A DNA stretch of 64,000 bases from an uncultured Roseobacter sp. (GTDB lineage Bacteria; Pseudomonadota; Alphaproteobacteria; Rhodobacterales; Rhodobacteraceae), in contig NZ_CANLYL010000002.1 in the NCBI RefSeq assembly GCF_947495275.1, positions 62,001 to 126,000 of the forward strand, in the 5' to 3' direction. The translations under genes and the position numbers were made by a program. The notes beneath the pieces are model-generated. The model saw only the letters and a list, made by a program, of their open reading frames with translations. It was not told the DNA's origin and ran no database searches. Shown piece after piece: positions 45,473-61,665 of the stretch. Positions within the stretch are counted from its first letter, which is position 1, and every line of letters begins with the position of its first letter.

Positions 45473-47307
45473 AAACCGCATCTGCGTCGCCACTCTGGAC
45501 CGGCGTCATCGCGTTGGGCATGGCCGCTTTGTGGGTTTACTGGATTTCTCTTCCCCATATCTCCGGGACCAGCAGTCGATTGGATGGGTTGGAAGCAGTG
45601 CTTCTGGACTACCGGTTCGCCTTGACGGGCCCGGTCGACCCTGCCGGGGAGGTTATCATTGTCGCGATCGACAACGCGACCATCGAAGGCACGCGCGATA
45701 CGGCTGCCGAAGGCCGGTTGCTCTTGGCCAAAGTGATCGAGAGCGTAAGTGCCGCAGAACCCAAGGTTGTGGGGCTCGACGTGATCCTGGCCGATGCCGG
45801 TGCTCCGGAAACCCATAACAAGCTGGCGGCGGCACTGGCCAGTGTCCCCACGGTGATAGCCTCCGCAGGAAGTTTCTCGCAAGCCAATGCACCTTGGGAA
45901 ATTGTGACACCTGACACGGTGCTCAGGCCGCAATCAATTTTTGCCAGTGCTGCTATGACCGGATTGGTGAATGTCTCGACTGACGCCAGCGGGACGCCGC
46001 GCCATATGCCTGTTGTTTTCCTGACGGACCAAGGCATTGAACCCTCTTTGCCGCTGCGTGTCGCTGCCTTGTTCGCTGGTGCAGAACCGAGGGTCTCCGA
46101 AGATGCCGTGACCCTGGCGGGCGCGGTCATTCCATTGGATCTGGGCATGCAGATGCCGCTTCGGCTGGTTGGTCCGGAGAGAACCTTGCCGACCCTCTCT
46201 GCCCTGGATGTTCTGGCGGGAAGTCAGGATGCGCGCCTTCGCGGTAAAGCCGTCATCATTGGCTACACCGCAACGGCCTTCGGGGATCGGTTTCCCACCG
46301 CTTTCGGGGACGACACACCCGGTGTTGAGGTCATTGCCACGGCGGTCTCTCAATTGCTGGGTGGTGAGACCCTGCTGCGTGATATGACTACCCGATGGGC
46401 AGATGTGGCAGCCTCGATCGGGCTTGCTCTGATTTGCACGGTTCTGGTACTCAGCCTGCCTTTGTCTACGGGCATACCGCTGGCGCTTGGGGTGCTCGGG
46501 GCCTATATGGCGGTCGTTTGGTTTGCTTTTTCGAATGGCATCTGGCTCAGTGCCGCTGTGCCGCTGGCCAGCGCCGGCCTGCCTATCATCGCCGGATCGG
46601 CGCTGCGTTACTTCCGCGAGAAGCGCAAAGCCAGTCACGGCGCGCGCGCCCTTGCCGCGCTCAAGCAGTTTCAGTCACCTGCTCTGGCCGAGATGATTTC
46701 AGAGAACCCGGCATTCCTGAAAGAGCCAACCCCGATGATCCTTTCCGTATTTTTCGTGGACCTCAGCGGGTTCACCCAATTGTCCGAAGCGCTTGGCCCG
46801 GCTAATACGCAAGATTTCCTGAAACGGTTCCATCAGGTGATTGCCAATCGAGTCGAAGAACACGATGGCATCGTTCTGAATTACATGGGTGATGGTGCAT
46901 TGGCCGTTTTCGGGATGACGGATGCCGTCAAACCCAGCGCGGATAATGCATTGCAGGCTGGTTTTGAGCTGGTTGATGATGTGCGGGGTCTGGGTCGGGC
47001 GGTCGTTGGGACGCCCGTACTCGGGTGCCGCGTCGGCATTCATCGTGGTGAGGTGGTGCTCTCGCGGCTGGGGGGTGAGCGGCATCAACAGGTCTCGGTT
47101 GCCGGTGATACCGTCAATCTGGCCAGCCGTTTGATGGAAGTAGCCAAATCGGAAAGCGCGGTCATTGCAGCCACCGAGGAATTGATGCAAGGGCTTGGTA
47201 CCCCTGCCTCGCAGCCTTCGAGCGATGTGAAACCGGTGAAGGTACGTGGACGGCAGGAGGAGGCACAGGTCCACCTTTGGCACAACGTTCAGAACCTCAG
47301 CTGTTGA
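45469..47307 (+). CDS. CHASE2-domain class III nucleotide cyclase
   Basis: A 612-residue membrane receptor cyclase. After an N-terminal helix comes a periplasmic CHASE2 domain (about residues 30-300, with DYRFALTGPVDPAGEVIIVA and VEVIATAVSQLLGGETLLRD). Three membrane helices follow (about 315-390), then a class III cyclase domain (about 425-585). Metal ligands Asp431 (FVDLSGFTQL) and Asp475 (NYMGDGALAVFG) are present, as is VAGDTVNLASRLMEVAK. The Lys that normally selects adenine (DKxxGD) is Asn471, so nucleotide specificity is uncertain. The start overlaps the FecR-domain gene. The end overlaps the convergent IclR gene by 11 bp. Confidence 0.88.
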   Translation: MKTASASPLWTGVIALGMAALWVYWISLPHISGTSSRLDGLEAVLLDYRFALTGPVDPAGEVIIVAIDNATIEGTRDTAAEGRLLLAKVIESVSAAEPKVVGLDVILADAGAPETHNKLAAALASVPTVIASAGSFSQANAPWEIVTPDTVLRPQSIFASAAMTGLVNVSTDASGTPRHMPVVFLTDQGIEPSLPLRVAALFAGAEPRVSEDAVTLAGAVIPLDLGMQMPLRLVGPERTLPTLSALDVLAGSQDARLRGKAVIIGYTATAFGDRFPTAFGDDTPGVEVIATAVSQLLGGETLLRDMTTRWADVAASIGLALICTVLVLSLPLSTGIPLALGVLGAYMAVVWFAFSNGIWLSAAVPLASAGLPIIAGSALRYFREKRKASHGARALAALKQFQSPALAEMISENPAFLKEPTPMILSVFFVDLSGFTQLSEALGPANTQDFLKRFHQVIANRVEEHDGIVLNYMGDGALAVFGMTDAVKPSADNALQAGFELVDDVRGLGRAVVGTPVLGCRVGIHRGEVVLSRLGGERHQQVSVAGDTVNLASRLMEVAKSESAVIAATEELMQGLGTPASQPSSDVKPVKVRGRQEEAQVHLWHNVQNLSC

Positions 47308-48076
47308 TCAGCGCTGTAAGCTCCTGCGCTGCGGTCTTTAACGCATCAATGTTCTTGGCCAAACCGGCCAAATCCTGACGCTGCAACGGCGCATGGACTG
47401 ACAAGGTCGACACTAGACGTTTGCGATCGTCCAGGATGGGGACGGCAATGGCGGCCATACCCTCCATGAACTCCTGATCATCGGTCGAGTATCCGCGCTT
47501 GCGCGTTGCCTCGATTTCCTCTTTGAGCTTGGCCTTGCTGGTGATCGTTCCGGGTGCACGTCTTTCCAGTCGCGCATTGGAGAGAAACCGGTCCAGATAA
47601 GCGGGTCTCAGGGAGGACAGGAACATCTTGCCACTGGCGGTGCAGTAAAACGGTACCTGCGTTCCCACAGGCAGTTGAATACGCAAGGGCCAATGTGTCT
47701 CTACGCGGTCAAGATAGGTCATCCCATCCCGGTCGGGGACCGCGATATTGCAGGTTTCACCGATCTTCTCAGCGACACTGCGCAGAATTGCCAGACGCAC
47801 GGTTCTGAGGCGCTGCGAAGAGACCGTATTGATGGAAAGTTGCCGCAGCCTGGGGCCGGGGCCATAGGACTTGCCATCAATATCTCGCTGTAGGAAACCG
47901 GATGCTTCGGCCGTGTGAAACAGCCGATGCAGGGTTGGTTTGGGTAATTGCAGACTTTCCTTCAGAGCCGACGGTGTGACAGGGACACCCGCCTTTGCAA
48001 CTTCTTCCAACAGGACCAGCAACCGCAGGTTGGTTGGTATCTGGCCCTGTCCTTCATTTGCAAAATCGTCCGGCAT
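47297..48076 (-). CDS. IclR-family transcriptional regulator
   Basis: A 259-residue regulator. It has an N-terminal winged helix (VTPSALKESLQLPKPTLHRL, about residues 36-55) and a C-terminal effector domain (ETCNIAVPDRDGMTYLDRVE, YCTASGKMFLSSL, YSTDDQEFMEGMAAIAVPIL). IclR proteins of this type often bind aromatic acids or small carboxylates. It lies nine bases after the TRAP large permease on the same strand, so it is probably co-transcribed with dctP-dctQ-dctM and controls it and the divergent GMC oxidoreductase. Confidence 0.92.
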   Translation of the reverse strand: MPDDFANEGQGQIPTNLRLLVLLEEVAKAGVPVTPSALKESLQLPKPTLHRLFHTAEASGFLQRDIDGKSYGPGPRLRQLSINTVSSQRLRTVRLAILRSVAEKIGETCNIAVPDRDGMTYLDRVETHWPLRIQLPVGTQVPFYCTASGKMFLSSLRPAYLDRFLSNARLERRAPGTITSKAKLKEEIEATRKRGYSTDDQEFMEGMAAIAVPILDDRKRLVSTLSVHAPLQRQDLAGLAKNIDALKTAAQELTALINS

Positions 48077-48085
48077 TTGTCTTCT

Positions 48086-49441
48086 TTAGTTTGGTAGCAA
48101 AAAGAGTGCCAGTTGAGGTGTCAGGGCGACCAGTATCCAAACCGCCAGGAGCGAGAACAGATACATTGTCGAATATCTCAGCAGGCGGAAATAGGGAACG
48201 CCTGTGACACCCGACGCCACGTAAAGGTTCAAGCCATATGGTGGCGTGATGAAGCCGATGGATGCGCCAACCAGGAAAATGACCGCGAAGTGGATCGGAT
48301 CCACACCAACGGAGGCTGCAATAGGCGCAAGGATCGGGGCCATGATGATCGTTACAGGAAGGCTTTCCAGGATCATTCCGGCGACAAAGACCATCGCCAT
48401 CGCCGTAAAGAGCACCGGATAGTATCCACCCATGCTGGTCACGAACCCACCAATGGTCTCCTGTGCGCCCAGGAGCGACAGGATTTGCTGCATCACCACT
48501 GATACCGCGATCAGCGGAGCGAGAATGCCGGTGATCTGTGCGGAGCGCACGACAATTGACGGGATTTCCGGCAGGGTGAACCCTTCGACGACAACCATTG
48601 AGCCGAAGGTTCTTTCATCCACGGGAATGCTGGAATCGTTGCCCATCAGCTTGTTCAGCGGGTAGCTGACCAAACCAACGATGATCCCGAACCCAACGGT
48701 GACCCCCGCCGCTTCGGTGGGGGAGAACTTACCGGTGTAAATGCCCCACAGCACCAGACCGATGGCAAAGAAACCCAACCAAGCGCCAAGCGCCGTTTTG
48801 GTCATACGGGTGATGCTGAGGTTTGTCAGAATGCCCCACTTGTTGATCGTGCAGACCACAAAGCAGACCGACATCATGGCGAGGACCATCAGAATACCCG
48901 GAATGATACCTGCCAGGAACAGCTGTCCCACTTCGAGATTCATCAGGAAGCCGTAGACGATGAAGATGATCGACGGCGGAATGATGATTCCGACTGTACC
49001 ACCAGCAGCAGCCGTGGCCGCGGAGAAGCGTTCGTCGTAGCCGCCCTTGACCATCTCGGGGTGTAGCATCGAGCCGATGGTTGCGGTAGTCGCCGAGTTC
49101 GATCCTGAGATCGCAGCGAAAAGGCCGCAGGCCCCGATGGAAGCCATCGCAAGGCCGCCGCGCAACCAACCGAGACAGGCGTAAGCATAATCCGACAGGC
49201 GTTTGGCGATCCCTGATTTGTTGATCAGGTCCCCGGTCAGGATGAAAAGCGGCATCGCCAGCAGCGCAAACCCGTCCTTGAAGACGTTGAGCATCTCCGA
49301 GCCGGTATTGTCGAGCGTCAGATCGAGGACGAAGCTACAGCCCACAACCCAGTAGAAGATGATGAGCAAGACAGGGGTGCCAAGCATGAAGAGAAAGGTC
49401 ACCCCGAGCGAGATAATTGTGATCCATGATCCGTCAGACAT
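48086..49441 (-). CDS. TRAP transporter large permease (DctM)
   Basis: A 451-residue DctM permease with about 12 membrane segments. It shows FALLAMPLFILTGDLINKSG, AAISGSNSATTATIGSMLHP, GGTVGIIIPPSIIFIVYGF and GFITPPYGLNLYVASGVTG. The gating-helix loop is enlarged by roughly 30 residues relative to the first DctM in the window. It overlaps the DctQ gene by one base (TGATG) and is followed by the iclR gene. It translocates the ligand of the receptor encoded at 50315-51547. Confidence 0.92.
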   Translation of the reverse strand: MSDGSWITIISLGVTFLFMLGTPVLLIIFYWVVGCSFVLDLTLDNTGSEMLNVFKDGFALLAMPLFILTGDLINKSGIAKRLSDYAYACLGWLRGGLAMASIGACGLFAAISGSNSATTATIGSMLHPEMVKGGYDERFSAATAAAGGTVGIIIPPSIIFIVYGFLMNLEVGQLFLAGIIPGILMVLAMMSVCFVVCTINKWGILTNLSITRMTKTALGAWLGFFAIGLVLWGIYTGKFSPTEAAGVTVGFGIIVGLVSYPLNKLMGNDSSIPVDERTFGSMVVVEGFTLPEIPSIVVRSAQITGILAPLIAVSVVMQQILSLLGAQETIGGFVTSMGGYYPVLFTAMAMVFVAGMILESLPVTIIMAPILAPIAASVGVDPIHFAVIFLVGASIGFITPPYGLNLYVASGVTGVPYFRLLRYSTMYLFSLLAVWILVALTPQLALFLLPN

Positions 49442-50112
49442 CAGACATCTCCCCCGATAACGGCTTGTTCAATCAACGGCTCGCCGTTGCGGTATTTCTC
49501 AAGGTCTTCGAAAAGGTTCTCCAGAACCCGCCCGGCCATCATCACGAAACAAATCGGCATGGTGACGATGAACCACCAACGCATGACGTTGTCGGTGCCC
49601 AGCACGATGGCGAAATTGTCATAGGTGTTGACGGTCACCCGCGCGGTAGTGGTGACAACGATGATGCAGAAGATAAACCACAGCAAGTTGTCGAGCAGCA
49701 GGCAGGTCAATTGCCCTTTGGGTCCCATCTTGGTGCGGAACTCGTTGAAACTGAGGTGCGTGCGCAGTTTGACATTATAGGAACATCCGTACCACGCCAT
49801 GATCATGAACAGGAGCGGGGGGATCGTCGTCGACCAGGGCACCTGCGCCGAAAAGACGAAACGCTGGATCACGCCGACAAAGATGATCAGGGCGATGATG
49901 ATGTAGGTGTAGACGATGATCGTGCGTTCCAGATGCCGGTCAAGCCACGGAATCTTCTTGTACAACCAAAGCACCAGAAAGCCGCCGATCACGGTCAGTG
50001 GTCCAAACACGAACCAAGCCCCCGGGGACCGGTAGGCCTGGACCACTTTGAAATTAATATCGCCACTCAGCGTCGCCGTGACGATGGTGCCCATATCCGC
50101 CAAGATTGACAT
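49441..50112 (-). CDS. TRAP transporter small permease (DctQ)
   Basis: A 223-residue DctQ-family membrane protein with four main hydrophobic segments (GPLTVIGGFLVLWLYKKIPW, IVYTYIIIALIIFVGVIQRF, LLDNLLWFIFCIIVVTTTAR and WWFIVTMPICFVMMAGRVL). At 223 residues it is longer than usual, with an N-terminal extension. GGGAGGG lies six bases before the ATG. It is separated from the receptor gene by 202 bases containing a hairpin. Confidence 0.85.
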   Translation of the reverse strand: MSILADMGTIVTATLSGDINFKVVQAYRSPGAWFVFGPLTVIGGFLVLWLYKKIPWLDRHLERTIIVYTYIIIALIIFVGVIQRFVFSAQVPWSTTIPPLLFMIMAWYGCSYNVKLRTHLSFNEFRTKMGPKGQLTCLLLDNLLWFIFCIIVVTTTARVTVNTYDNFAIVLGTDNVMRWWFIVTMPICFVMMAGRVLENLFEDLEKYRNGEPLIEQAVIGGDV

Positions 50113-50314: not shown

Positions 50315-51547
50315 TTAGGCTTTCCACCAGCGGCGTGGTTCGACGTTTTCTGGCAGTGTATCTTCGTCGATCTCGCGCGCGATGTTGTAGATCTCCTGAT
50401 ACGTGTCGAGACCACCCGACCATCCGTTGAGACGCTCGCGCCAGTCTTCCCACAATTGTGGCTGGAACTCTGGCGAGCACATTTCTTCGGCCTTGCGACG
50501 CTCTTCTTTCGACAGGAAGGCGTTACGCACGTTGTTTTGAGCGAAGATTGTGTTTGGCAGAATCGGATCGGAAAGACCAACCGTTTTGACCAGAGCCGCC
50601 TCGTTTGCAGCCTGTACATGGACCTGGCTCCAATAGGAACTTTCCATCACGGCGTCCTGCAATTCGCCGCCAAGGCTGTCGAAGACACCTGCGTTCATCG
50701 CCGTGTGCTCTGTGCCGCAGAAGAAGTCGAGGTGTACGGACTGGGACACAACCGGCGACATGTTGGCGTAGGCCACGGCGGATGCCCATGTTTCCGCACC
50801 ATCAATCAGACCCTGCTTGAGACCGTCGAGGGTTTCTTCCCAGGCGACGGGCACCGGGTTCAGGTTCAGCGCTGTCATGGCGATTCGGCCCAACTGGGTG
50901 CCCGTGACGCGGTTTTTCGTGCCAAAGAGTTCTTCGATGCTGGTCACCGTTGGCTTGTCTTCCCAGGACAGGCCCAACTGGATGCCGCGAAGCTCCGCGT
51001 GGGAGAACAGGAATTTCAGACCGTGGCGGCGCTCATAGGGTTCGCGCAGCAGTTCCTGAGATTTGGGGTGATAGAGGAAGTGATACTGGTCGGCCCGGCT
51101 GCGGAACATGAAGGCGTAGTCCAGAACGTTCAGATAAGGGGCGCCCCCGGCGGAGTTCTGAGTGGAGGCCGCATAGATATCAACGATTCCCTGTTGGGCT
51201 TTTTCGACGCAGGAAACCTGACCACAAATCTGATTATCGCCGATAAACTCGACGCGAATCTCTCCGTCGGTGCGACTTTCAAGGTCACGAGCGAATTCCA
51301 GCGCACCGGCGCGTTCGATCAAAAGGTTGCGTGCATTGAAGCCCGCGGCACCGAATTTCAACGTAAATTTGGGCTCTTTTGCGAAACGTTTTTCGTAGGT
51401 CGATTCGGCCGCATTAGCCAAGTTTGCAAGGCTCATCGCCCCACCAAAGCCACCCGCAGCGAGCAAAGTGGAGCTCATGCCGTAGCGCCCCGCGACCCGG
51501 AACAGATCCCGGCGCGAAATGTGGTTTAGTTTGTCGTAAATTCCCAT
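50315..51547 (-). CDS. TRAP transporter substrate-binding protein (DctP), Tat-type signal
   Basis: A 410-residue receptor, larger than typical DctP. A twin-arginine leader SRRDLFRVAGRYGMSSTLLA ends near NLANA. GGAGG lies five bases before ATG 51547; a further in-frame ATG seven codons upstream is rejected because the Shine-Dalgarno would fall inside the gene. The equivalent of the family's carboxylate-binding strand reads FGTKNRVTGTQLGRIA and keeps the Arg, so an organic acid is the likely ligand. It is divergent from a GMC oxidoreductase that may act on the imported compound. Confidence 0.88.
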   Translation of the reverse strand: MGIYDKLNHISRRDLFRVAGRYGMSSTLLAAGGFGGAMSLANLANAAESTYEKRFAKEPKFTLKFGAAGFNARNLLIERAGALEFARDLESRTDGEIRVEFIGDNQICGQVSCVEKAQQGIVDIYAASTQNSAGGAPYLNVLDYAFMFRSRADQYHFLYHPKSQELLREPYERRHGLKFLFSHAELRGIQLGLSWEDKPTVTSIEELFGTKNRVTGTQLGRIAMTALNLNPVPVAWEETLDGLKQGLIDGAETWASAVAYANMSPVVSQSVHLDFFCGTEHTAMNAGVFDSLGGELQDAVMESSYWSQVHVQAANEAALVKTVGLSDPILPNTIFAQNNVRNAFLSKEERRKAEEMCSPEFQPQLWEDWRERLNGWSGGLDTYQEIYNIAREIDEDTLPENVEPRRWWKA

Positions 51548-51575
51548 GACTTCCTCCCTGAATGTCATTTATTGA

Positions 51576-51606
51576 GACTATTAGTCCCAAAAAACACTAG
51601 TATAGT
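51576..51606. promoter_or_regulatory. Paired inverted repeats in the dctP/GMC divergent promoter
   Basis: Two related palindromes, GACTA-T-TAGTC (51576-51586) and ACTA-GTA-TAGT (51596-51606), share the half-site ACTA/TAGT and are spaced about two helical turns apart, centre to centre. They sit in an AT-rich divergent promoter region. They are candidate binding sites for the IclR protein encoded in the same operon. No established IclR consensus is matched. Confidence 0.45.
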
Positions 51607-51654
51607 ATTCTCTTTTTGCATAGAGTTTTTTTCACACTGGTTTGGGAGGTCGAT

Positions 51655-53250
51655 ATGGAAGCTGATTTTGTTGTCGTCGGAGCAGGGTCCGCAGGATGTG
51701 TGTTGGCCAATCGGTTGAGCGCCGACCCCAAAAACAAGGTGATCTTGCTGGAGGCAGGTGGGCGGGATTTGAACCCCTGGATCCACATTCCAGTTGGATA
51801 CTTCAAAACCATCCACAACCCTTCCGTGGACTGGTGCTACAAGACCGAGCCTGATCCCGGGCTGAATGGCCGGTCGATCGAATGGCCCCGTGGCAAGGTG
51901 CTTGGGGGGTCTTCTTCACTGAACGGTCTGCTTTATGTACGCGGGCAACCACAGGATTATGACCGCTGGCGTCAGATGGGGAATACCGGGTGGGGATGGG
52001 ATGATGTGCTGCCCCTGTTCAAACGTGCCGAGAGCAATGAACGCGGCGCAGACGCGTATCATGGCGATCAGGGCCCGCTGTCGGTTTCCAACATGCGCAT
52101 TCAGCGCCCCATTACAGATGCATGGGTCGCGGCGGCCCAGGCGGCAGGGTACAAATTTAATCCCGACTACAACGGCGCTGATCAGGAGGGGGTAGGGTTT
52201 TTCCAACTTACTGCCCGCAACGGCCGTCGGTGCAGCTCCGCCGTCGCCTATCTGAACCCGGTCAAGAAGCGGCCGAACCTGCAGATTGTTACACATGCGC
52301 AGGTGGACAAGGTTGAAATTGAAGATGGCCGTGCCACGGGGGTCAGTTACAAGGACCGATCAGGACGGGTCCAGACCATCAAGGCAAATCGCGACATTAT
52401 CCTCTGCGGAGGGGCCATAAATTCTCCACAGCTCTTGATGCTGTCAGGTATTGGCGAAGCTGAGCAACTTTCCGAACACGGCATTGAGGTCAAAAAAGAA
52501 CTCAAAGGGGTCGGCAAGAACATGCAGGACCATTTGCAGGCGCGCCTGGTATACAAATGCAATGAGCCGACCTTGAACGATGAGGTCAGCAGTTTGTTTG
52601 GTCAGGCAAAAATCGGCCTGAAATACGCGCTTTTCCGGGCGGGTCCCATGACCATGGCGGCAAGCCTCGCAACCGGTTTTCTCAAAACCCGCGAAGATAT
52701 GGAAACGCCGGACATTCAGTTCCATGTCCAACCCTTGTCAGCCGAGAATCCGGGCAAGGGAGCGGATAAGTTCTCGGCCTTCACCATGTCGGTTTGCCAG
52801 TTACGACCCGAGAGCAAGGGCGAAATTCGTCTGAGTTCTGCTCAGCCGCGCGCCTATCCGAAAATTATTCCAAATTACCTGTCCACCGAAACCGATTGCC
52901 GGACGATTGTGGCAGGCGTGAACATCGCGCGCAAAATCGCGCGCCATGCGCCCCTGACCTCCAAGATCTCGGAGGAATTCAGGCCGCATTCAACCCTGGA
53001 CATTGACGACTATGATGCAACGCTCGATTGGGCGCGGAACAATACGGCCTCGATCTATCACCCGACAGGGACCTGCAAGATGGGATCAGGCGAGGACGCG
53101 GTGGTTGACGCTGAGCTGAAGGTCCATGGCATCAAGGGCCTGCGCGTGGCGGATTGTTCGATCATGCCCGAGATCGTTTCAGGAAATACAAACGCGCCTG
53201 CGATCATGATCGGGGAAAAGGCCTCTGATCTGATACTTGGAACAACCTGA
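51655..53250 (+). CDS. GMC-family FAD oxidoreductase (choline dehydrogenase-like)
   Basis: A 531-residue FAD-dependent alcohol oxidase or dehydrogenase. It has the N-terminal dinucleotide fold DFVVVGAGSAGCVLANRLS, the GMC signature WPRGKVLGGSSSLNGLLYVR (about residues 81-100), INSPQLLMLSGIG (second signature) and the active-site pair in SIYHPTGTCKMGSG and GNTNAPAIMIGEKASD. GGGAGG precedes the ATG by five bases. No betaine operon genes surround it, so choline is not assumed. It probably oxidises a primary or secondary alcohol linked to the divergent TRAP system. A GC hairpin follows. Confidence 0.92.
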   Translation: MEADFVVVGAGSAGCVLANRLSADPKNKVILLEAGGRDLNPWIHIPVGYFKTIHNPSVDWCYKTEPDPGLNGRSIEWPRGKVLGGSSSLNGLLYVRGQPQDYDRWRQMGNTGWGWDDVLPLFKRAESNERGADAYHGDQGPLSVSNMRIQRPITDAWVAAAQAAGYKFNPDYNGADQEGVGFFQLTARNGRRCSSAVAYLNPVKKRPNLQIVTHAQVDKVEIEDGRATGVSYKDRSGRVQTIKANRDIILCGGAINSPQLLMLSGIGEAEQLSEHGIEVKKELKGVGKNMQDHLQARLVYKCNEPTLNDEVSSLFGQAKIGLKYALFRAGPMTMAASLATGFLKTREDMETPDIQFHVQPLSAENPGKGADKFSAFTMSVCQLRPESKGEIRLSSAQPRAYPKIIPNYLSTETDCRTIVAGVNIARKIARHAPLTSKISEEFRPHSTLDIDDYDATLDWARNNTASIYHPTGTCKMGSGEDAVVDAELKVHGIKGLRVADCSIMPEIVSGNTNAPAIMIGEKASDLILGTT

Positions 53251-53437: not shown

Positions 53438-56400
53438 ATGAGCTTCCGGTTTTTCTCCACCCGGAATAGGGCGCCACATCTGGGGCCCTACCCGCTGGAG
53501 CGACTTGTGCGTGGCGAGATGCCGGATTTGGCGTCACTCCCGCCATTCCAACCTCCGGATTTCCAACGACCGCATACCCCTGCCTCGATCGTGAATGCGA
53601 TGGCGGACTATCAGGCGACAATGGACGCCATCCGTGACGGGCTGGTCAACAAAACGCGGTCCCAATGTCCGGATGACTTGCACGAAAGGGCCAATCATCT
53701 GAAGTCGTTCGGGTACTTCAGTGATGCCTCGATGGTGGGGGTTGGCCCGCTGGTTGCGTCTGCAATTCTGAACCAGCCCATTCGAAACCCTGACATTGAC
53801 AGGCTGGCAGAGGATTTGCGCACCAAGCAAACCAAAACCCTCGCGTCGGGCATAGATGTGATCATGGCGGATCTGCGCGATTCCATGACCGCGCCACCGA
53901 CCACGATTGTCGATCACGCCCATTGCGTGGTTTTCCTGTATGAAATGCCGCGTGACCCGCGTGACGGGGAGGCTGGTACAGACTGGCTGGAGGACGCGCA
54001 GGCCCATCGCGCCTGTCTGCGCGCCGCAGAGACAGCGGTCGTTCTGGCCAACTACATCCGACTGTTGGGTTGGGATGCCAAGGCCCATACCGGCACCAGC
54101 ACCGATGTTGACCTCGACCGGTTGACGGTGGCCGCCGGTCTCGCCTCGATCGAAGAGGGGACCCTTGTGAATCCCTATCTCGGAACCCGATTTGGCGTGG
54201 CCGTTTTGACAACGACCATGCCGCTTGCCCATGACGCCCCGCTGGCACCGATGCGCGCTCAGACCTGGTTGCGCACCAATGCCCCGGCCTGGTGGCTGGG
54301 CAAAGGCAGTCAGAAATCGGCTTTCACCAAGGACCCGTTCGCCAGCCGGGATTTTGCCCTTGGGCCGCATCCATTTGAGACGCTCACACGCGTAGATCAG
54401 CCCACAACCTATATTGACGAGCCCAATGTGGCGCGTGTGCCCAAACGCACCGACATGTTCGCACGGGCGCAGTTTGGCGATATGGGCAAGGCCAATCAGG
54501 AAGGATCAGCAGGGGGGCACTATGCCCGCAAAGCAGCGCCATCCATGGCACAGCGCCGCATGTTGGGGGCGTTTGTCCTGTTGCAGGATGGCCCGCGCAA
54601 TGAAGGACCCCGCCCCGATGATGCAGAGCGCAATGCCGCGAATGTCAAAGCGGCCTGTTATTTCCTGGGCGTGGACGCTGTTGGGCTGAGCCGGTGTCCG
54701 GACTGGACCTGGTACAGCCACGACGCCACGGGCGCGCCGCTCAAACCGCCACATGATCAGGCGATCAGCATGATCATTGATCAGGGGTTTGACACCATGG
54801 AAGGGGCCTCTGGCGACGACTGGATATCCGTGGCCCAGTCCATGCGGGCCTATCTTCGGTTTTCTCTGCTGGGCGGCGTGATCGCTCGTCAAATCCGAAA
54901 TCTCGGCTATAAAGCCAAGGCGCATACGGTTCTGGATGGCGAAGTATTGCAGCCGCCGCTGTTGTTGTTGTCCGGGTTAGGGGAGGTCAGCCGCATTGGC
55001 GAAGTCATTCTGAACCCCTTTCTGGGGCCGCGGCTGAAGTCGGGCGTTGTGACCACGGATATGCCTCTGGCGCATGACAAGCCGATTGACTTCGGCCTGC
55101 AGAAGTTCTGCGAAAGCTGCAACAAATGCGCGCGCGAATGCCCCTCGGGGGCAATTACCGCAGGCCCCAAGCTGATGTTCAACGGCTACGAGATCTGGAA
55201 GTCGGACAGCCAGAAATGTGCGACATATCGGATCACCACACCGGGCGGGGCCATGTGTGGCCGGTGCATGAAAACATGCCCCTGGAACCTCGAAGGGCTC
55301 TTTGCAGAACGTCCCTTCAGGTGGGCGGCGATGAATGTACCGAAGTTGGCACCGGTCCTCGCAAAACTGGACGATGCGGTGGGCAACGGCCGTTTGAACC
55401 CGATCAAGAAGTGGTGGTGGGACATCGAATTGGCCGAAGACGGCGGATACCATCCAACCCGCAAACCGGTGAATGCGCGTGATCTGCAAAAGGATCTGGC
55501 GCTGAAATACGAGGACCAGACGCTGGCGGTCTATCCGGCCAGTCTCGCCCCGCACCCCTGGCCCTACCCGTTCCCGATGGATCGCGAGGCGGGGATCGAG
55601 GCCTATCAGGCGATGATCACGGCGGAGGAATACAAATCCCGCAAGGCGGCGGGTGAGACGGGCGCGTGGGATCACCGCTACCTCAATGGCAGTGACAGCC
55701 CGGTGGTTCGGGTTGAGATCGCGCAATCAGAAAAGCTGACAAGCGAGGTCAGCCGCTACGTCTTTCGTGCATTGGACGGCGGGGAATTGCCGGAATGGAC
55801 CGCGGGCGCCCATCTCGACATCGTCGTGACGCCGGACAAGCTGCGGCAATATTCGATGTGTGGGGACCCAGGCGACCGCTCACGCTATGAAATTGCAGTC
55901 TTGCGGGAAGCGGACGGGCGCGGTGGTTCAGAACTGCTGCACCGTATTTTCAACGAGGGTCGCAAGGTTTTTGTGTCCCGTCCGATCAATCACTTCCCGG
56001 TCGAAAAATCGGCTTCGCACAGCTTTCTGATGGGCGGCGGGATTGGGATCACGCCGATGATCGCCATGGCGCATGAGCTGCATCGCTTGGGCAAACCCTT
56101 CGATCTGCATTATTCTGTGCCCACCCGGCAGGCAGGTGCGTTCATCCATGATCTGGCTGAAATGCCCTGGGCGGATCGGGTCCACATCCATATTTCAGAT
56201 GAAGATACGCGCGCTGATCTGGATAAGGTACTGGAAGGGTACCAGCCGGGCTGGCATGTTTATACCTGTGGACCCGAAAGCTACATGAACGCGGTTGTTG
56301 CGGCAGCCGAGCGTGGGGGTTTCCCGGAAGAGGCGCGGCGATTGGAGTATTTTTCAGTCCCTGAACTGCCGGAATATGAAAACCACCCCTTCACATTGGC

Positions 56401-56647
56401 CTTGAAAGACGGTCGAAAAATCGCCGTCCCGGCGGACCGTTCGGCGGCGGATGTACTGGTCGAGCATGGCCTGAAGGTGGATATCAAATGCTCGGATGGC
56501 ATTTGCGGTGTGTGCAAATGTGGGGTGATTGCCGGCGAGGTCGAGCATCGCGATTTTGTTCTGTCCAAGGCGCAGCGCGAGAACAACATCATCCTGTGCC
56601 AATCCCGGGCGGCGGACGAAAACGGCGAAATCGCAATCGATCTTTAA
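53438..56647 (+). CDS. Self-sufficient cytosolic reductive dehalogenase fused to a flavin/[2Fe-2S] reductase
   Basis: A 1069-residue fusion. An N-terminal corrinoid-type reductive dehalogenase part (to about residue 620) ends in two [4Fe-4S] sites: FCESCNKCARECP (Cys558, 561, 564, 568), and Cys594 with GAMCGRCMKTCPWN (Cys607, 610, 614). A phthalate-dioxygenase-reductase-like part follows, with flavin motif RQYS (803-806), NAD site LMGGGIGITPMIAM (from about 864), YTCGPESYMNAV, and a plant-type [2Fe-2S] CSDGICGVC (Cys1018, 1023, 1026) plus Cys1054. There is no Tat leader and no RdhB anchor gene. This is the NpRdhA/BhbA architecture: NAD(P)H-driven removal of halogen from aromatic compounds in the cytosol. 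Residues ~204-269 repeat ~486-551. GAGGAGG fixes the start. Confidence 0.93.
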   Translation: MSFRFFSTRNRAPHLGPYPLERLVRGEMPDLASLPPFQPPDFQRPHTPASIVNAMADYQATMDAIRDGLVNKTRSQCPDDLHERANHLKSFGYFSDASMVGVGPLVASAILNQPIRNPDIDRLAEDLRTKQTKTLASGIDVIMADLRDSMTAPPTTIVDHAHCVVFLYEMPRDPRDGEAGTDWLEDAQAHRACLRAAETAVVLANYIRLLGWDAKAHTGTSTDVDLDRLTVAAGLASIEEGTLVNPYLGTRFGVAVLTTTMPLAHDAPLAPMRAQTWLRTNAPAWWLGKGSQKSAFTKDPFASRDFALGPHPFETLTRVDQPTTYIDEPNVARVPKRTDMFARAQFGDMGKANQEGSAGGHYARKAAPSMAQRRMLGAFVLLQDGPRNEGPRPDDAERNAANVKAACYFLGVDAVGLSRCPDWTWYSHDATGAPLKPPHDQAISMIIDQGFDTMEGASGDDWISVAQSMRAYLRFSLLGGVIARQIRNLGYKAKAHTVLDGEVLQPPLLLLSGLGEVSRIGEVILNPFLGPRLKSGVVTTDMPLAHDKPIDFGLQKFCESCNKCARECPSGAITAGPKLMFNGYEIWKSDSQKCATYRITTPGGAMCGRCMKTCPWNLEGLFAERPFRWAAMNVPKLAPVLAKLDDAVGNGRLNPIKKWWWDIELAEDGGYHPTRKPVNARDLQKDLALKYEDQTLAVYPASLAPHPWPYPFPMDREAGIEAYQAMITAEEYKSRKAAGETGAWDHRYLNGSDSPVVRVEIAQSEKLTSEVSRYVFRALDGGELPEWTAGAHLDIVVTPDKLRQYSMCGDPGDRSRYEIAVLREADGRGGSELLHRIFNEGRKVFVSRPINHFPVEKSASHSFLMGGGIGITPMIAMAHELHRLGKPFDLHYSVPTRQAGAFIHDLAEMPWADRVHIHISDEDTRADLDKVLEGYQPGWHVYTCGPESYMNAVVAAAERGGFPEEARRLEYFSVPELPEYENHPFTLALKDGRKIAVPADRSAADVLVEHGLKVDIKCSDGICGVCKCGVIAGEVEHRDFVLSKAQRENNIILCQSRAADENGEIAIDL

Positions 56648-56739
56648 AACCTGCTTTCACAAAACTGATACCGGACTGTCATGTCCATGTGTCCTGAATC
56701 TGCGCCTTTGCGCGCATGTCGAGACATATGGAGAAATCA

Positions 56740-58914
56740 ATGACCAAGACCCTGCTGCTGACCAGCACCTTGCTTGCCGGAATTGCCTTGTCGCCTGCCC
56801 ATGCGGAGATGAACTTCAACCGCATCGCCTCTTTTCCCGTGACCGCCAACTTTGAGGGCGACGTCCCCGAAGAGACATCCGCGGAGATCATTGATGTCTC
56901 CGGTGACGGGCTGACGCTGATATATACCGATAGCCCCGCAGGGGTGATTGGGGCCATTGATATCACGAATGCCCATGCGCCTTTGCCCAAGGGAACCTTG
57001 CCAATGCAGGGCGAGCCGACAGCCGTCTCCGTGATCGGCAACACAGCCTTCGTCGCCGTGAACACATCCGAAAGCTACACAGCGCCCTCTGGTATGATCA
57101 AAGCTGTTGATCTTGTGGACATGCAGGTCGTGCAATCCTGCAATTTGGGGGGGCAGCCCGATAGCACAGCGCGGGCAAAGGATGGATCCTTCCTCGCTAT
57201 TGCCATCGAAAACGAACGTGACGAAGATTTAGGAGAAGGGCGGGTGCCGCAAATGCCTGCGGGTGATCTGGTCCTTGTGGATGTCGCTGACGGCAGAATG
57301 GATTGCGGCTCCCTGCGCCGGTCCGGTCTGGCTGGATTGGCCGATATCGCAGGCGAAGATCCCGAGCCGGAATTTGTCGACATCAATAGCCTCGGTGAGG
57401 TCGTCGTGACGCTTCAGGAAAATAACCACATCGCCATTGTCGCCAGGGACGGATTGGTCTTGTCGCATTTCTCCGCCGGAGCGGTTGATCTGGAAGGGAT
57501 TGATGCCACCGATGAACGGGCGGCATTGATCTTTGATGAACGCCAGCCGGGCCGCCTTCGTGAGCCCGATGGTGTGCAGTGGATCGACGATGACCACTTC
57601 ACCATCGCCAATGAGGGCGACATGGACGGCGGTGCGCGTGGGATGACCATCTTTCGCAAGGACGGCACGTTGATCTGGGAAAGCGGTGCCACGCTGGAAC
57701 AGGCGATTGTGCAGATCGGGCATTATCCCGACAAGCGCTCCGATAGCAAAGGCGTTGAACCGGAAGGTATGGAGTTCGCCGTCTATGACGGCACGCCTTT
57801 CGTATTTGTCATGGCGGAACGCGCCTCTATCGTTGCCGTATACGATGTCACTGACCCTACGGCACCGGTTCTGCATCAGCTGCTGCCGTCTGGCATCTCC
57901 CCCGAGGGCGCCGTGGCCATTCCTGAAAGAGGGTTGTTGGTCACCGCCAATGAATTTGATGGGCGCCAGGACGGGGCCGCGCCCGCACATGTCATGCTCT
58001 ATGAATACACGGACAGGGCGGCGAGCTATCCGCACCTTACATCGAAGGGAATGGAAACGCTGACCGGGTGGGGGGCGATCTCGGGCCTGGTGTCGGATCA
58101 GAACGGCATGATCTACGCGGTTTCTGACAGTTTCTATGGCCACCAGCCCCGGATTTTCAAGATCGATCCCAGAACTTCGCCCGCCCGCATCGTCGAGGCG
58201 ATTGATGTAACGCGTAATGGCTTGCCAGCGCAAAAGCTGGACATGGAAGGGATCGCGCTGGACGGCAAAGGCGGCTTCTGGATTGCGTCTGAAGGGCGCA
58301 CGGATCGTCTGCGGCCCCATGCCATTCTGAACGTAAGCGCAACCGGCGAAATCATCGCGGAAATCGGTTTGCCCCCCTACCTCATGGCCTTTGAACGGCG
58401 CTTTGGCTTTGAGGGTATTGCGAAGGTGGGGGAGATGCTCTGGATGCCGGTTCAGCGTCAATGGGCGGATGACCCCAAAGATCACGTGAAACTTGTCGCC
58501 TACAATCTTGAGACCGAAGAGTGGGGCGCTGTGCTCTATCCAAAAGCGGCCGCAGAAAAAGGCTGGGTTGGCCTGAGCGAGTTGAGCCTCTATGGGGACA
58601 GCGTCTACATCATTGAGCGCGACAATCAGCACGCAAGCGACGCCGTGACCAAGAAAATCTATGCGGTGCCGCTTGATGATTTGGCACCCGCAGCACTCGG
58701 ATCGGATTTGCCGGTGGTTTCCAAAACGTTGGTGCGCGACATGATCCCGGACCTCAAAGCGACGGGCGGATATGTTCTCGACAAGATCGAGGGTCTGGCC
58801 ATCTCGCCGGAGGGCCAGGCATGGATTGCAACCGATAACGACGGGGTTGATGATCATTCCGGCGAGACCATGTTCTTTGACATCGGGAACATCTCGCGCA
58901 AGGCGTTGAACTGA
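56740..58914 (+). CDS. Exported esterase-like/phytase-like beta-propeller protein
   Basis: A 724-residue secreted or periplasmic protein. A Sec signal (TLLLTSTLLAGIALSPAHA, cleavage before EMNF) is followed by propeller-type repeats (LEGIDATDERAALIFDERQ, GVQWIDDDHFTIANEGDMD). The C-terminal half matches the esterase-like activity of phytase family (AISGLVSDQNGMIYAVSDSF, KLDMEGIALDGKGGFWIASE, KIEGLAISPEGQAWIATDND). Acid pairs near DNDGVDDHSGE suggest Ca2+ binding. The start at MTKTLLL follows GGAGAAATC. It follows the dehalogenase by 92 bases and may be a separate transcript. A phosphate-ester or lactone substrate is possible. Confidence 0.8.
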   Translation: MTKTLLLTSTLLAGIALSPAHAEMNFNRIASFPVTANFEGDVPEETSAEIIDVSGDGLTLIYTDSPAGVIGAIDITNAHAPLPKGTLPMQGEPTAVSVIGNTAFVAVNTSESYTAPSGMIKAVDLVDMQVVQSCNLGGQPDSTARAKDGSFLAIAIENERDEDLGEGRVPQMPAGDLVLVDVADGRMDCGSLRRSGLAGLADIAGEDPEPEFVDINSLGEVVVTLQENNHIAIVARDGLVLSHFSAGAVDLEGIDATDERAALIFDERQPGRLREPDGVQWIDDDHFTIANEGDMDGGARGMTIFRKDGTLIWESGATLEQAIVQIGHYPDKRSDSKGVEPEGMEFAVYDGTPFVFVMAERASIVAVYDVTDPTAPVLHQLLPSGISPEGAVAIPERGLLVTANEFDGRQDGAAPAHVMLYEYTDRAASYPHLTSKGMETLTGWGAISGLVSDQNGMIYAVSDSFYGHQPRIFKIDPRTSPARIVEAIDVTRNGLPAQKLDMEGIALDGKGGFWIASEGRTDRLRPHAILNVSATGEIIAEIGLPPYLMAFERRFGFEGIAKVGEMLWMPVQRQWADDPKDHVKLVAYNLETEEWGAVLYPKAAAEKGWVGLSELSLYGDSVYIIERDNQHASDAVTKKIYAVPLDDLAPAALGSDLPVVSKTLVRDMIPDLKATGGYVLDKIEGLAISPEGQAWIATDNDGVDDHSGETMFFDIGNISRKALN

Positions 58915-60822: not shown

Positions 60823-61665
60823 TTACTGCGCGATGAACTGGCGAATGGCGTTGGTATATTCACCGGGGGCCTGGAACGATGCGAAATGGCTCACGTTTTC
60901 CAGAACGCGCAACTCAGCCGCAGGCATGATGCCCGCGATCATTTTCGAATGATCCATCAGGATGGCTTCGTCGAATTCGCTCTGCACCACCAGGGTCGGC
61001 ACCGTCACGCTTTTGAGCGCCTCGGCCCCGCCGGGTTTTGAGGTACTCCACATCTCCACCACGCCCGCCAGAAAATCATCGAACCCCTCTGGGACCGGCG
61101 ACATCTGCGCGTAGTCAGACGCCATCATCCCGACGTAGGTGCGAAAGACCGCGTTGTTTTCAACGGAAGGGTCGATGCCATCGAGCGTGATATTGCCTGC
61201 ATGGGCAAAATGGCTGGCCAACCGTTCAGGGTGTGACTGGGAGATGGCATAGCCAATATTGGCCCCGTCGGACCAGCCGACAAGATGCACTTTGTCCACG
61301 CCGATCTGATCCAGCAGCGCGAGGTAATCGGAGGCCAGCAGGTCGTAGGAATAGGCGCTGCCATCGTTCGAGCTTCGCCCGTGCCCGCGCGTATCGGCAA
61401 CAATGACCTTGAAATCTGTCATCAGATCCTTGACCTGCTCCGCCCAGATGTCCGCATGGGCCAAACCCCCATGGATAAGCAGAATAGGGGTTTCCGAAGC
61501 ATCGCCGTAGGTGGCGTGATACATTTCGATCCCATTGACCGGGATCGTGCCGCTCGTCGCTGCTTTCGGCATCGCGGGTGTTTCCGGGATCGACAGCCAT
61601 CGGTCTTCCGCCGCTGCAATCGTTGCGGTGAATACCAGGGTGGCGGCTATCAGATGTTTGAACAT
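60823..61665 (-). CDS. Exported alpha/beta hydrolase
   Basis: A 280-residue alpha/beta-hydrolase with a Sec signal (HLIAATLVFTATIAAA, cleavage before EDRW). The fold begins GIEMYHATYGDASETPILLI, the oxyanion-hole region is HGGLAHADIW, the nucleophile elbow is LVGWSDGANIGYAI, and the catalytic His lies in ENVSHFASFQAPGEY near the C-terminus. The acid is probably in QSEFDEAIL. It would act in the periplasm on esters or lactones. AAGGGAGAG precedes the ATG. The 174 bases up to the DMT gene hold nothing recognisable. Confidence 0.9.
   Translation of the reverse strand: MFKHLIAATLVFTATIAAAEDRWLSIPETPAMPKAATSGTIPVNGIEMYHATYGDASETPILLIHGGLAHADIWAEQVKDLMTDFKVIVADTRGHGRSSNDGSAYSYDLLASDYLALLDQIGVDKVHLVGWSDGANIGYAISQSHPERLASHFAHAGNITLDGIDPSVENNAVFRTYVGMMASDYAQMSPVPEGFDDFLAGVVEMWSTSKPGGAEALKSVTVPTLVVQSEFDEAILMDHSKMIAGIMPAAELRVLENVSHFASFQAPGEYTNAIRQFIAQ

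Follow-up and report, generated by a model that had tools for sequence, protein, structure and literature searches.

A predicted self-sufficient reductive dehalogenase of the BhbA/JtRdhA kind encoded by an uncultured Roseobacter

INTRODUCTION

Reductive dehalogenases (RDHs) fused in one chain to their own reductase are a known enzyme type, and BhbA of Comamonas is the first one described. Here, we analyzed a 64,000-nt stretch of an uncultured Roseobacter sp. (assembly GCF_947495275.1, contig NZ_CANLYL010000002.1, positions 62,001 to 126,000; hereafter, the window) that carries such a gene, an rdhA-PDOR fusion of 1069 aa, at 53438..56647 on the (+) strand. An earlier reading of the same DNA, made from the sequence alone (hereafter, the sequence-only reading), had proposed a single-chain RdhA-reductase fusion with neither a twin-arginine translocation (Tat) leader nor an RdhB-like anchor gene. 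Our analysis indicates that the fusion protein is very probably a cytosolic, cobalamin-dependent, self-sufficient catabolic RDH of the BhbA/JtRdhA kind, carrying out NAD(P)H-driven ortho-debromination of phenolics.

Three described RdhA proteins can be compared with the window protein. JtRdhA of Jhaorihella thermophila (WP_104007082) is reported to be NADPH-driven and active in air with tight coupling. Bromo- and iodophenols are its reported substrates, phenols being debrominated at the ortho position, and chloro analogues serve as inhibitors (PMC10463259). Like the window protein, JtRdhA is an RdhA-PDOR fusion with no Tat leader, a duplicated core, the fusion insert, the Y/K/R residues, and a marine host; its activity has been measured, whereas the window protein is known from its sequence only. 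BhbA (Comamonas sp. 7D-2, plasmid pBHB, WP_015585978) is a full-length fusion with 50.7% identity to the window protein over the whole length and the same six pocket residues. According to the 2023 paper, its gene belongs to a bromoxynil-degradation cluster (PMC10463259). On this conjugative plasmid, bhbA lies beside genes for a tripartite tricarboxylate transporter (TTT) binding protein and protocatechuate dioxygenase, in one gene run with protocatechuate 4,5-dioxygenase, a setting unlike that of the window gene. NpRdhA (Nitratireductor pacificus; 4ras, 6zxu) is 45.1% identical to the dehalogenase part of the fusion over 677 aligned residues and shares its pocket and duplicated core but has neither the reductase module nor the insert. 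The sequence-only reading had cited BhbA as cytosolic and NpRdhA as self-sufficient, and neither example holds as given: BhbA has been reported as membrane-associated (PMC5316534) and so is no plain cytosolic case, and NpRdhA is placed in a clade without a reductase domain and is described as receiving its electrons from other proteins (PMC10463259).

We searched open-licence PubMed Central papers for earlier accounts of such enzymes in marine bacteria. Almost all BhbA homologues were assigned to marine aerobic proteobacteria by Chen et al. 2013, as cited in a 2017 review (PMC5316534); an RdhA of Ruegeria pomeroyi is named in a tree legend of the 2023 paper (PMC10463259); and putative bhbA homologues are described as widely distributed in the Roseobacter clade in a 2026 paper (PMC13101508). 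Because BhbA homologues have been reported in marine proteobacteria and JtRdhA was characterized in 2023, the enzyme kind is not new, and the window protein is a further member of it, a matter of annotation rather than discovery.

RESULTS AND DISCUSSION

The fusion gene and its product

The gene was delineated from its reading frame, profile scores, matches to sequences of solved structures, and cofactor motifs; all of its features given below are on the (+) strand. The frame at 53438-56647 is open over 1069 aa. A mechanically called open reading frame (ORF) begins at a TTG 60 bases upstream, and a ribosome-binding-like sequence, GAGGAGG, precedes the ATG at 53438. Homologues of similar length predominate: 118 of 120 (the best 120 of 2951 relatives) are 1040-1080 aa long. 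The domain order is dehalogenase, flavin/NAD reductase, and plant-type ferredoxin. Specifically, a motif search and a Pfam scan located two [4Fe-4S] motifs, C558-ESCNKCAREC and C594...CGRCMKTC, at residues 558-568 and 594-614 (55109..55279). The C-terminal third resembles phthalate dioxygenase reductase (2pia), which matches residues 756-1068 with an E-value of 3.4e-56 and is in itself a separate protein serving an oxygenase. The flavin- and NAD(P)H-binding part of this module spans residues about 756-983 (55703..56386), based on the 2pia match, with PF22290 and PF00175 below their cut-offs, and is followed by a plant-type [2Fe-2S] ferredoxin domain at residues about 984-1069 (56387..56644; PF00111, E = 3.4e-8) with a CX4CX2C...C motif at 1018 (C1018-SDGICGVC...C).

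Next, we looked for signs of export or membrane attachment. A motif check of the first 40 residues, made in place of a dedicated Tat predictor, found no RR pair, and no membrane segment is expected because the best 19-residue hydropathy mean, likewise used instead of a dedicated predictor, is only 1.33. Inspection of the ORFs of at least 90 aa around the gene revealed none that was RdhB-like; the hydrophobic neighbors there are the permeases of a tripartite ATP-independent periplasmic (TRAP) transporter. A membrane-anchored arrangement was rejected for want of an RdhB-like neighbor. The gene thus has neither the Tat leader nor the RdhB anchor gene of respiratory RdhAs, and it carries the reductase module that is missing from truncated RdhAs of the NpRdhA type. 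The frame, the motifs, the 2pia match, and the first 40 residues all agree with the single-chain fusion that had been proposed.

Family assignment and catalytic pocket

The RDH model TIGR02486 scores the fusion protein at 202.7 bits (cut-off, 160.35). As a control, the same model was applied to 14 well-known genomes, giving some signal in 11 and a score above the cut-off in none. The solved NpRdhA matches the N-terminal two thirds of the fusion protein with an E-value of about 1e-161. The pocket residues named for NpRdhA, i.e., F291, S422, M423, Y426, K488, and R552 (PMC10463259), align with F341, S468, M469, Y472, K534, and R598 of the fusion protein. All six are identical in BhbA and in the proteins of Nitratireductor OM-1, Aminobacter, Jannaschia, TM1040, and MED193, and all six are kept in each of the best 120 homologues.

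The alignment to NpRdhA and BhbA that the sequence-only reading had suggested therefore shows the pocket Tyr, Lys, and Arg to be retained, and it also corrects the catalytic assignment. Tyr426 (TWYSHD) and Lys492/494 (YKAKAHT), which had been put forward as the catalytic pair, are present at those positions but do not align with catalytic residues. Judged by the alignment to NpRdhA, these are instead Y472 (codon 54851..54853), the counterpart of the catalytic Tyr Y426, together with K534 (55037..55039; K488) and R598 (55229..55231; R552). The number 426 is that of the tyrosine in NpRdhA's own numbering.

Two further features of described enzymes recur in the window protein. Residues about 159-275 (53912..54262) are a vestigial duplicate of the cobalamin-binding core, with 38% identity to the catalytic copy over 112 residues (E = 1e-20); a duplicated core has been described for catabolic RdhAs (PMC10463259). 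Residues 104-158 (53747..53911) form an insert of 55 residues versus 13 in NpRdhA, and the ~42 extra residues are also found in BhbA and the other fusions aligned. Since an insert specific to RdhA-PDOR fusions has been described (PMC10463259), we infer that the one at 104-158 is the same as that of JtRdhA.

Proposed mechanism and cobalamin supply

In the mechanism that we propose, NAD(P)H would reduce the C-terminal module's flavin by hydride transfer, and single electrons would then travel via the [2Fe-2S] ferredoxin domain and both [4Fe-4S] clusters to cobalamin. This cofactor would remove bromine (or iodine) ortho to the phenolic OH, with Y472, aided by K534/R598, supplying the proton. The architecture, pocket residues, duplicated core, and fusion-type insert are all indicated by the protein sequence, and NADPH use, oxygen tolerance, and a preference for bromo and iodo compounds are predicted by analogy with JtRdhA. 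The natural substrate is presumably a marine bromophenol or a brominated hydroxybenzoate, which the organism would use as a carbon source or detoxify.

Cobalamin genes, which the sequence-only reading had recommended looking for, were found. Because CobN is above its cut-off (on contig C2) and the genome has three cobalamin riboswitches, the organism probably makes cobalamin, as far as these markers go. A second CobN-like gene, at C16:10860-13733, is under the family cut-off.

Neighboring genes and the role of the enzyme

Gaps of 187 and 68 bases flank the fusion gene. Upstream lie a GMC oxidoreductase gene of the choline-dehydrogenase type (51616..53250, (+) strand), whose product is a possible, unproven partner, and, on the (−) strand, genes for the TRAP solute-binding protein DctP (50315..51568), the TRAP permeases DctM (48086-49441) and DctQ (49441-50112; together, 48086..50112), and an IclR-type regulator (47297..48076). 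Downstream, a gene for a phytase-like/choice-of-anchor protein (56716-58914, (+) strand) starts after the 68-base gap and is kept at 79% identity in L002 (L numbers denote loci, and G numbers denote genomes sampled from the family). These assignments come from Pfam and NCBIfam scans, complemented for GMC and DctP by locus comparison; the mechanical ORF picker had taken the frame opposite the true DctP. Overall, the nine scanned neighbors comprise the IclR regulator, the three TRAP proteins, the GMC and phytase-like proteins, a DUF1045 protein, a quinone oxidoreductase, and an alpha/beta hydrolase. The regulator has PcaR/PcaU/PobR as its best NCBIfam match (150 bits; the cut-off of 285 is not reached), and the alpha/beta hydrolase at 60823 resembles PcaD, likewise only below the cut-off.

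Several observations weigh against a catabolic debrominase. No clear aromatic-degradation enzyme is among the nine scanned neighbors. In our neighborhood survey, in which 80 loci were kept of 421 found, no shared gene context appeared outside groups of close relatives, and neither the 530 near nor the 464 farther genes included a relative of ligA, ligB, or pobA (78 loci; this count leaves out L024, L036, and L043, where the fusion ORF was not found by motif, and the window's own TRAP genes). Adjacent aromatic-degradation genes are seen for BhbA and are not strictly required of a fusion-type RdhA. The Pfam Dehalogenase model PF13486 does not reach the fusion protein; therefore, a Pfam-only annotation would lose the family name. 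JtRdhA is likened to the window protein by its published description rather than by sequence, with no identity figure. Finally, a single fusion enzyme had received detailed study up to 2023, as that year's paper presents the field (PMC10463259), and the substrate scope of the window protein is for this reason extrapolated.

The gene context also bears on what the enzyme is for. The debrominase may serve detoxification and not catabolism, relieving bromophenol toxicity while the phenol goes unused; this would be compatible with the enzyme class proposed, concerns only its role, and strikes us as a serious contender, if not quite the favored one. It fits the lack of clear ring-cleavage genes beside the fusion gene and of ligA, ligB, and pobA relatives in the scanned loci. 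However, degradation genes may sit elsewhere in the genome, and the relatives on pBHB and pOM-1 are in or near aromatic-degradation genes. On the latter plasmid, from Nitratireductor sp. OM-1 (L104), a fusion RDH 49.5% identical to the window protein is located within ~5 kb of pobA and ring-cleavage genes. The pOM-1 gene also adjoins an aldehyde dehydrogenase gene, perhaps as part of a brominated hydroxybenzoate or hydroxybenzaldehyde pathway.

A refinement of the debrominase reading would place the same enzyme class within a dedicated TRAP-GMC-RDH unit, in which TRAP imports a brominated acid or alcohol, GMC oxidizes the side chain, and the RDH debrominates. The set of IclR, TRAP, GMC, and RDH genes is common to the window, L002, L032, and L156, and L063 has the same TRAP type near its RDH (DctM and DctP, 82-85%) plus a GMC gene (58%). 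Across the 295 family genomes, our own excluded, a DctP relative co-occurs with a near-full-length fusion RDH (30 with both, 17 with DctP only, 78 with RDH only, and 169 with neither; odds 3.8, p = 5e-5, kinship not corrected). DctP and RDH lie within 15 kb of each other in 4/31 genomes with both, namely, our own, G123, G038, and G266; for the 3/30 other genomes, a rough chance estimate gives p = 0.0015. TRAP or TTT genes account for 14/530 near genes versus 1/464 farther ones, and on 3/6 plasmids inspected the RDH match has other TRAP or TTT genes beside it. Nevertheless, we regard a dedicated unit as doubtful. The divergent DctP-GMC pair (50315-53250 in the window) is adjacent in 45/48 family genomes having DctP, mostly far from any RDH, and a near-full-length RDH is missing from 17 of these 48 genomes (G102 and G269 among them have a cut or split one). 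Among the three other linked genomes, G038 has no GMC gene beside DctP; conservation in L002, L032, and L156 is higher for GMC and DctP (83-98%) than for the RDH (72-85%); and the TRAP genes are oriented opposite to the RDH. A dedicated operon is thus weakened as a candidate and is not shown, because elsewhere the TRAP and GMC genes are usually found away from RDH. Substrate uptake through the neighboring TRAP system is possible.

As to substrates, it is unlikely that the enzyme has a different scope and acts also or chiefly on chlorinated or non-phenolic organohalides. NpRdhA is reported to reduce chlorinated compounds and JtRdhA is not, with most pocket residues common to both (PMC10463259), which means that halogen preference cannot be read off these residues. 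However, for JtRdhA, itself of the fusion type, activity is described solely on Br and I compounds, and the catabolic RdhAs characterized so far are described as acting on ortho-halogenated phenols (PMC10463259).

It is highly improbable that the protein is an epoxyqueuosine reductase (QueG), or some other class III cobalamin enzyme that does not dehalogenate, joined to a reductase, given that its similarity to QueG is weak (25.1 bits with TIGR00276, below the cut-off of 200), that its RDH score is above cut-off and eightfold higher, that its NpRdhA-type pocket is intact, and that a separate 361-aa frame at C3:449491, under the RDH cut-off, is likely the genome's own QueG. QueG identity was rejected on these scores and the intact pocket; placement with QueG or loss of the corrinoid-pocket residues, either of which the sequence-only reading had named as fatal to its proposal, was not observed.

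Distribution, possible transfer, and possible decay of the fusion gene

Further analysis of the fusion gene revealed that it is common among relatives of the host. Of 7998 candidates scored in a protein search, 2951 reached an E-value of 1e-3 or better; identity to the window protein is 72-99% for the best 120, and those named are mostly from Roseobacters or allied alphaproteobacteria. In the family, 247/295 genomes have some match, many to the reductase part only, and near-full-length relatives were found in 108/294 other genomes, a count that leaves out split genes (G099, G269), cut ones (G102 and shorter), and G033. This frequency supports the published view of marine Roseobacters as a reservoir of BhbA-type reductive debrominases. 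The fusion-type RDH of MED193 (P0023/P0024, L009) is 74.8% identical to the window protein, and its two entries, 100% identical over 1069 residues, represent a single sequence. In G033, a 734-aa frame (G033:C1:3834-5591) has a 42% match to residues 159-740 only and is perhaps an NpRdhA-like form without the reductase.

G266, of the same genus, is just 72% identical in its fusion RDH, whereas other genera reach up to 77%, and a Rhizobiaceae sequence (L029) falls within the Roseobacters in a tree built from 33 selected rows; together, these sequence relationships suggest transfer between lineages. The tree program warns that the branches on which NpRdhA and BhbA meet are long, which leaves the deep joins unsure. 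Plasmids carry the gene as well: 8/1097 matching plasmid records cover at least 80% of the query, BhbA's included, and six of these eight were inspected. On a Yoonia plasmid (L108), the match is in two pieces, with no annotated gene and no frame open across the stretch. Matches in two pieces or with stops were noted at G269:C1:2006484-2009686, G099:C4:333239-336432, G193:C12:38798-40105, and G096:C17, as well as on L108, and the fusion gene seems to be decaying in some lineages, unless these are assembly errors.

A second, short dehalogenase

The genome also has a short RDH on contig C12 (L092:9089-10342, i.e., C12:95091-96341, (−) strand), which is Tat-less and has no fused reductase. It has 417 residues as called, although most of its listed homologues have 387-396 aa, and it scores 163.2 bits; the closest PDB sequence is a PceA (8q4h, E = 1.2e-45). 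A Tyr and an Arg (the latter at the K488 position) are invariant in 121/121 rows of its alignment, as is a Trp near the R552 position, where another alignment placed a different residue.

The 2026 paper reports that Ros_A3X954 of Roseobacter sp. MED193 debrominates 2,6-dibromophenol and is oxygen-sensitive, and it prints the [4Fe-4S] motifs with their positions, 283 and 337 (PMC13101508). Those of the short RDH, CDICTKCA and CAICMRVCP, are the same, with one residue differing in the longer first motif. Among the 120 listed homologues of the short RDH, the complete first motif as printed is found in 104 and the second in 105, with both at exactly the printed positions in 73. In comparison, neither motif occurs in any of the best 120 fusion homologues. 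This contrast indicates that the published MED193 debrominase belongs to the other, short class, and the printed motifs and positions rule it out as a fusion protein. Ros_A3X954 is therefore, like the window fusion, a Tat-less RDH of a marine Roseobacter; it differs from the fusion in its reported oxygen sensitivity and, as compared by printed motifs rather than full sequence, in having those of the short family.

Relatives of the short RDH at 60-77% identity were detected in 24/148 other family genomes (three of the 24 are partial). The two genes are found together more often than expected, the fusion being present in 15/24 genomes with the short gene versus 37/124 without it (odds 3.9, p = 0.004, kinship not corrected). 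Around the short RDH, no clear pathway was found in 18 loci, in four of which the motif search yielded no such ORF; a TetR-type gene and a homoserine-dehydrogenase-like gene occur in seven loci each, both named by sequence reading rather than from a database. We tentatively suggest, with considerable reserve, that two mechanistically different Tat-less debrominases may divide the work by oxygen level, with an NAD(P)H-driven, presumably oxygen-tolerant fusion on the one hand and a short, PceA-like, oxygen-sensitive type fed by separate electron carriers on the other. If so, bromophenol removal begun in oxic water would go on inside low-oxygen particles. Because both classes occur in one genome, they can be compared directly side by side. 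A third RDH-like class, with frames of ~330-350 aa that are 31-37% identical to the short RDH, was noted at G005:C3:287795, G031:C22:178670, G082:C22:30446, and other sites.

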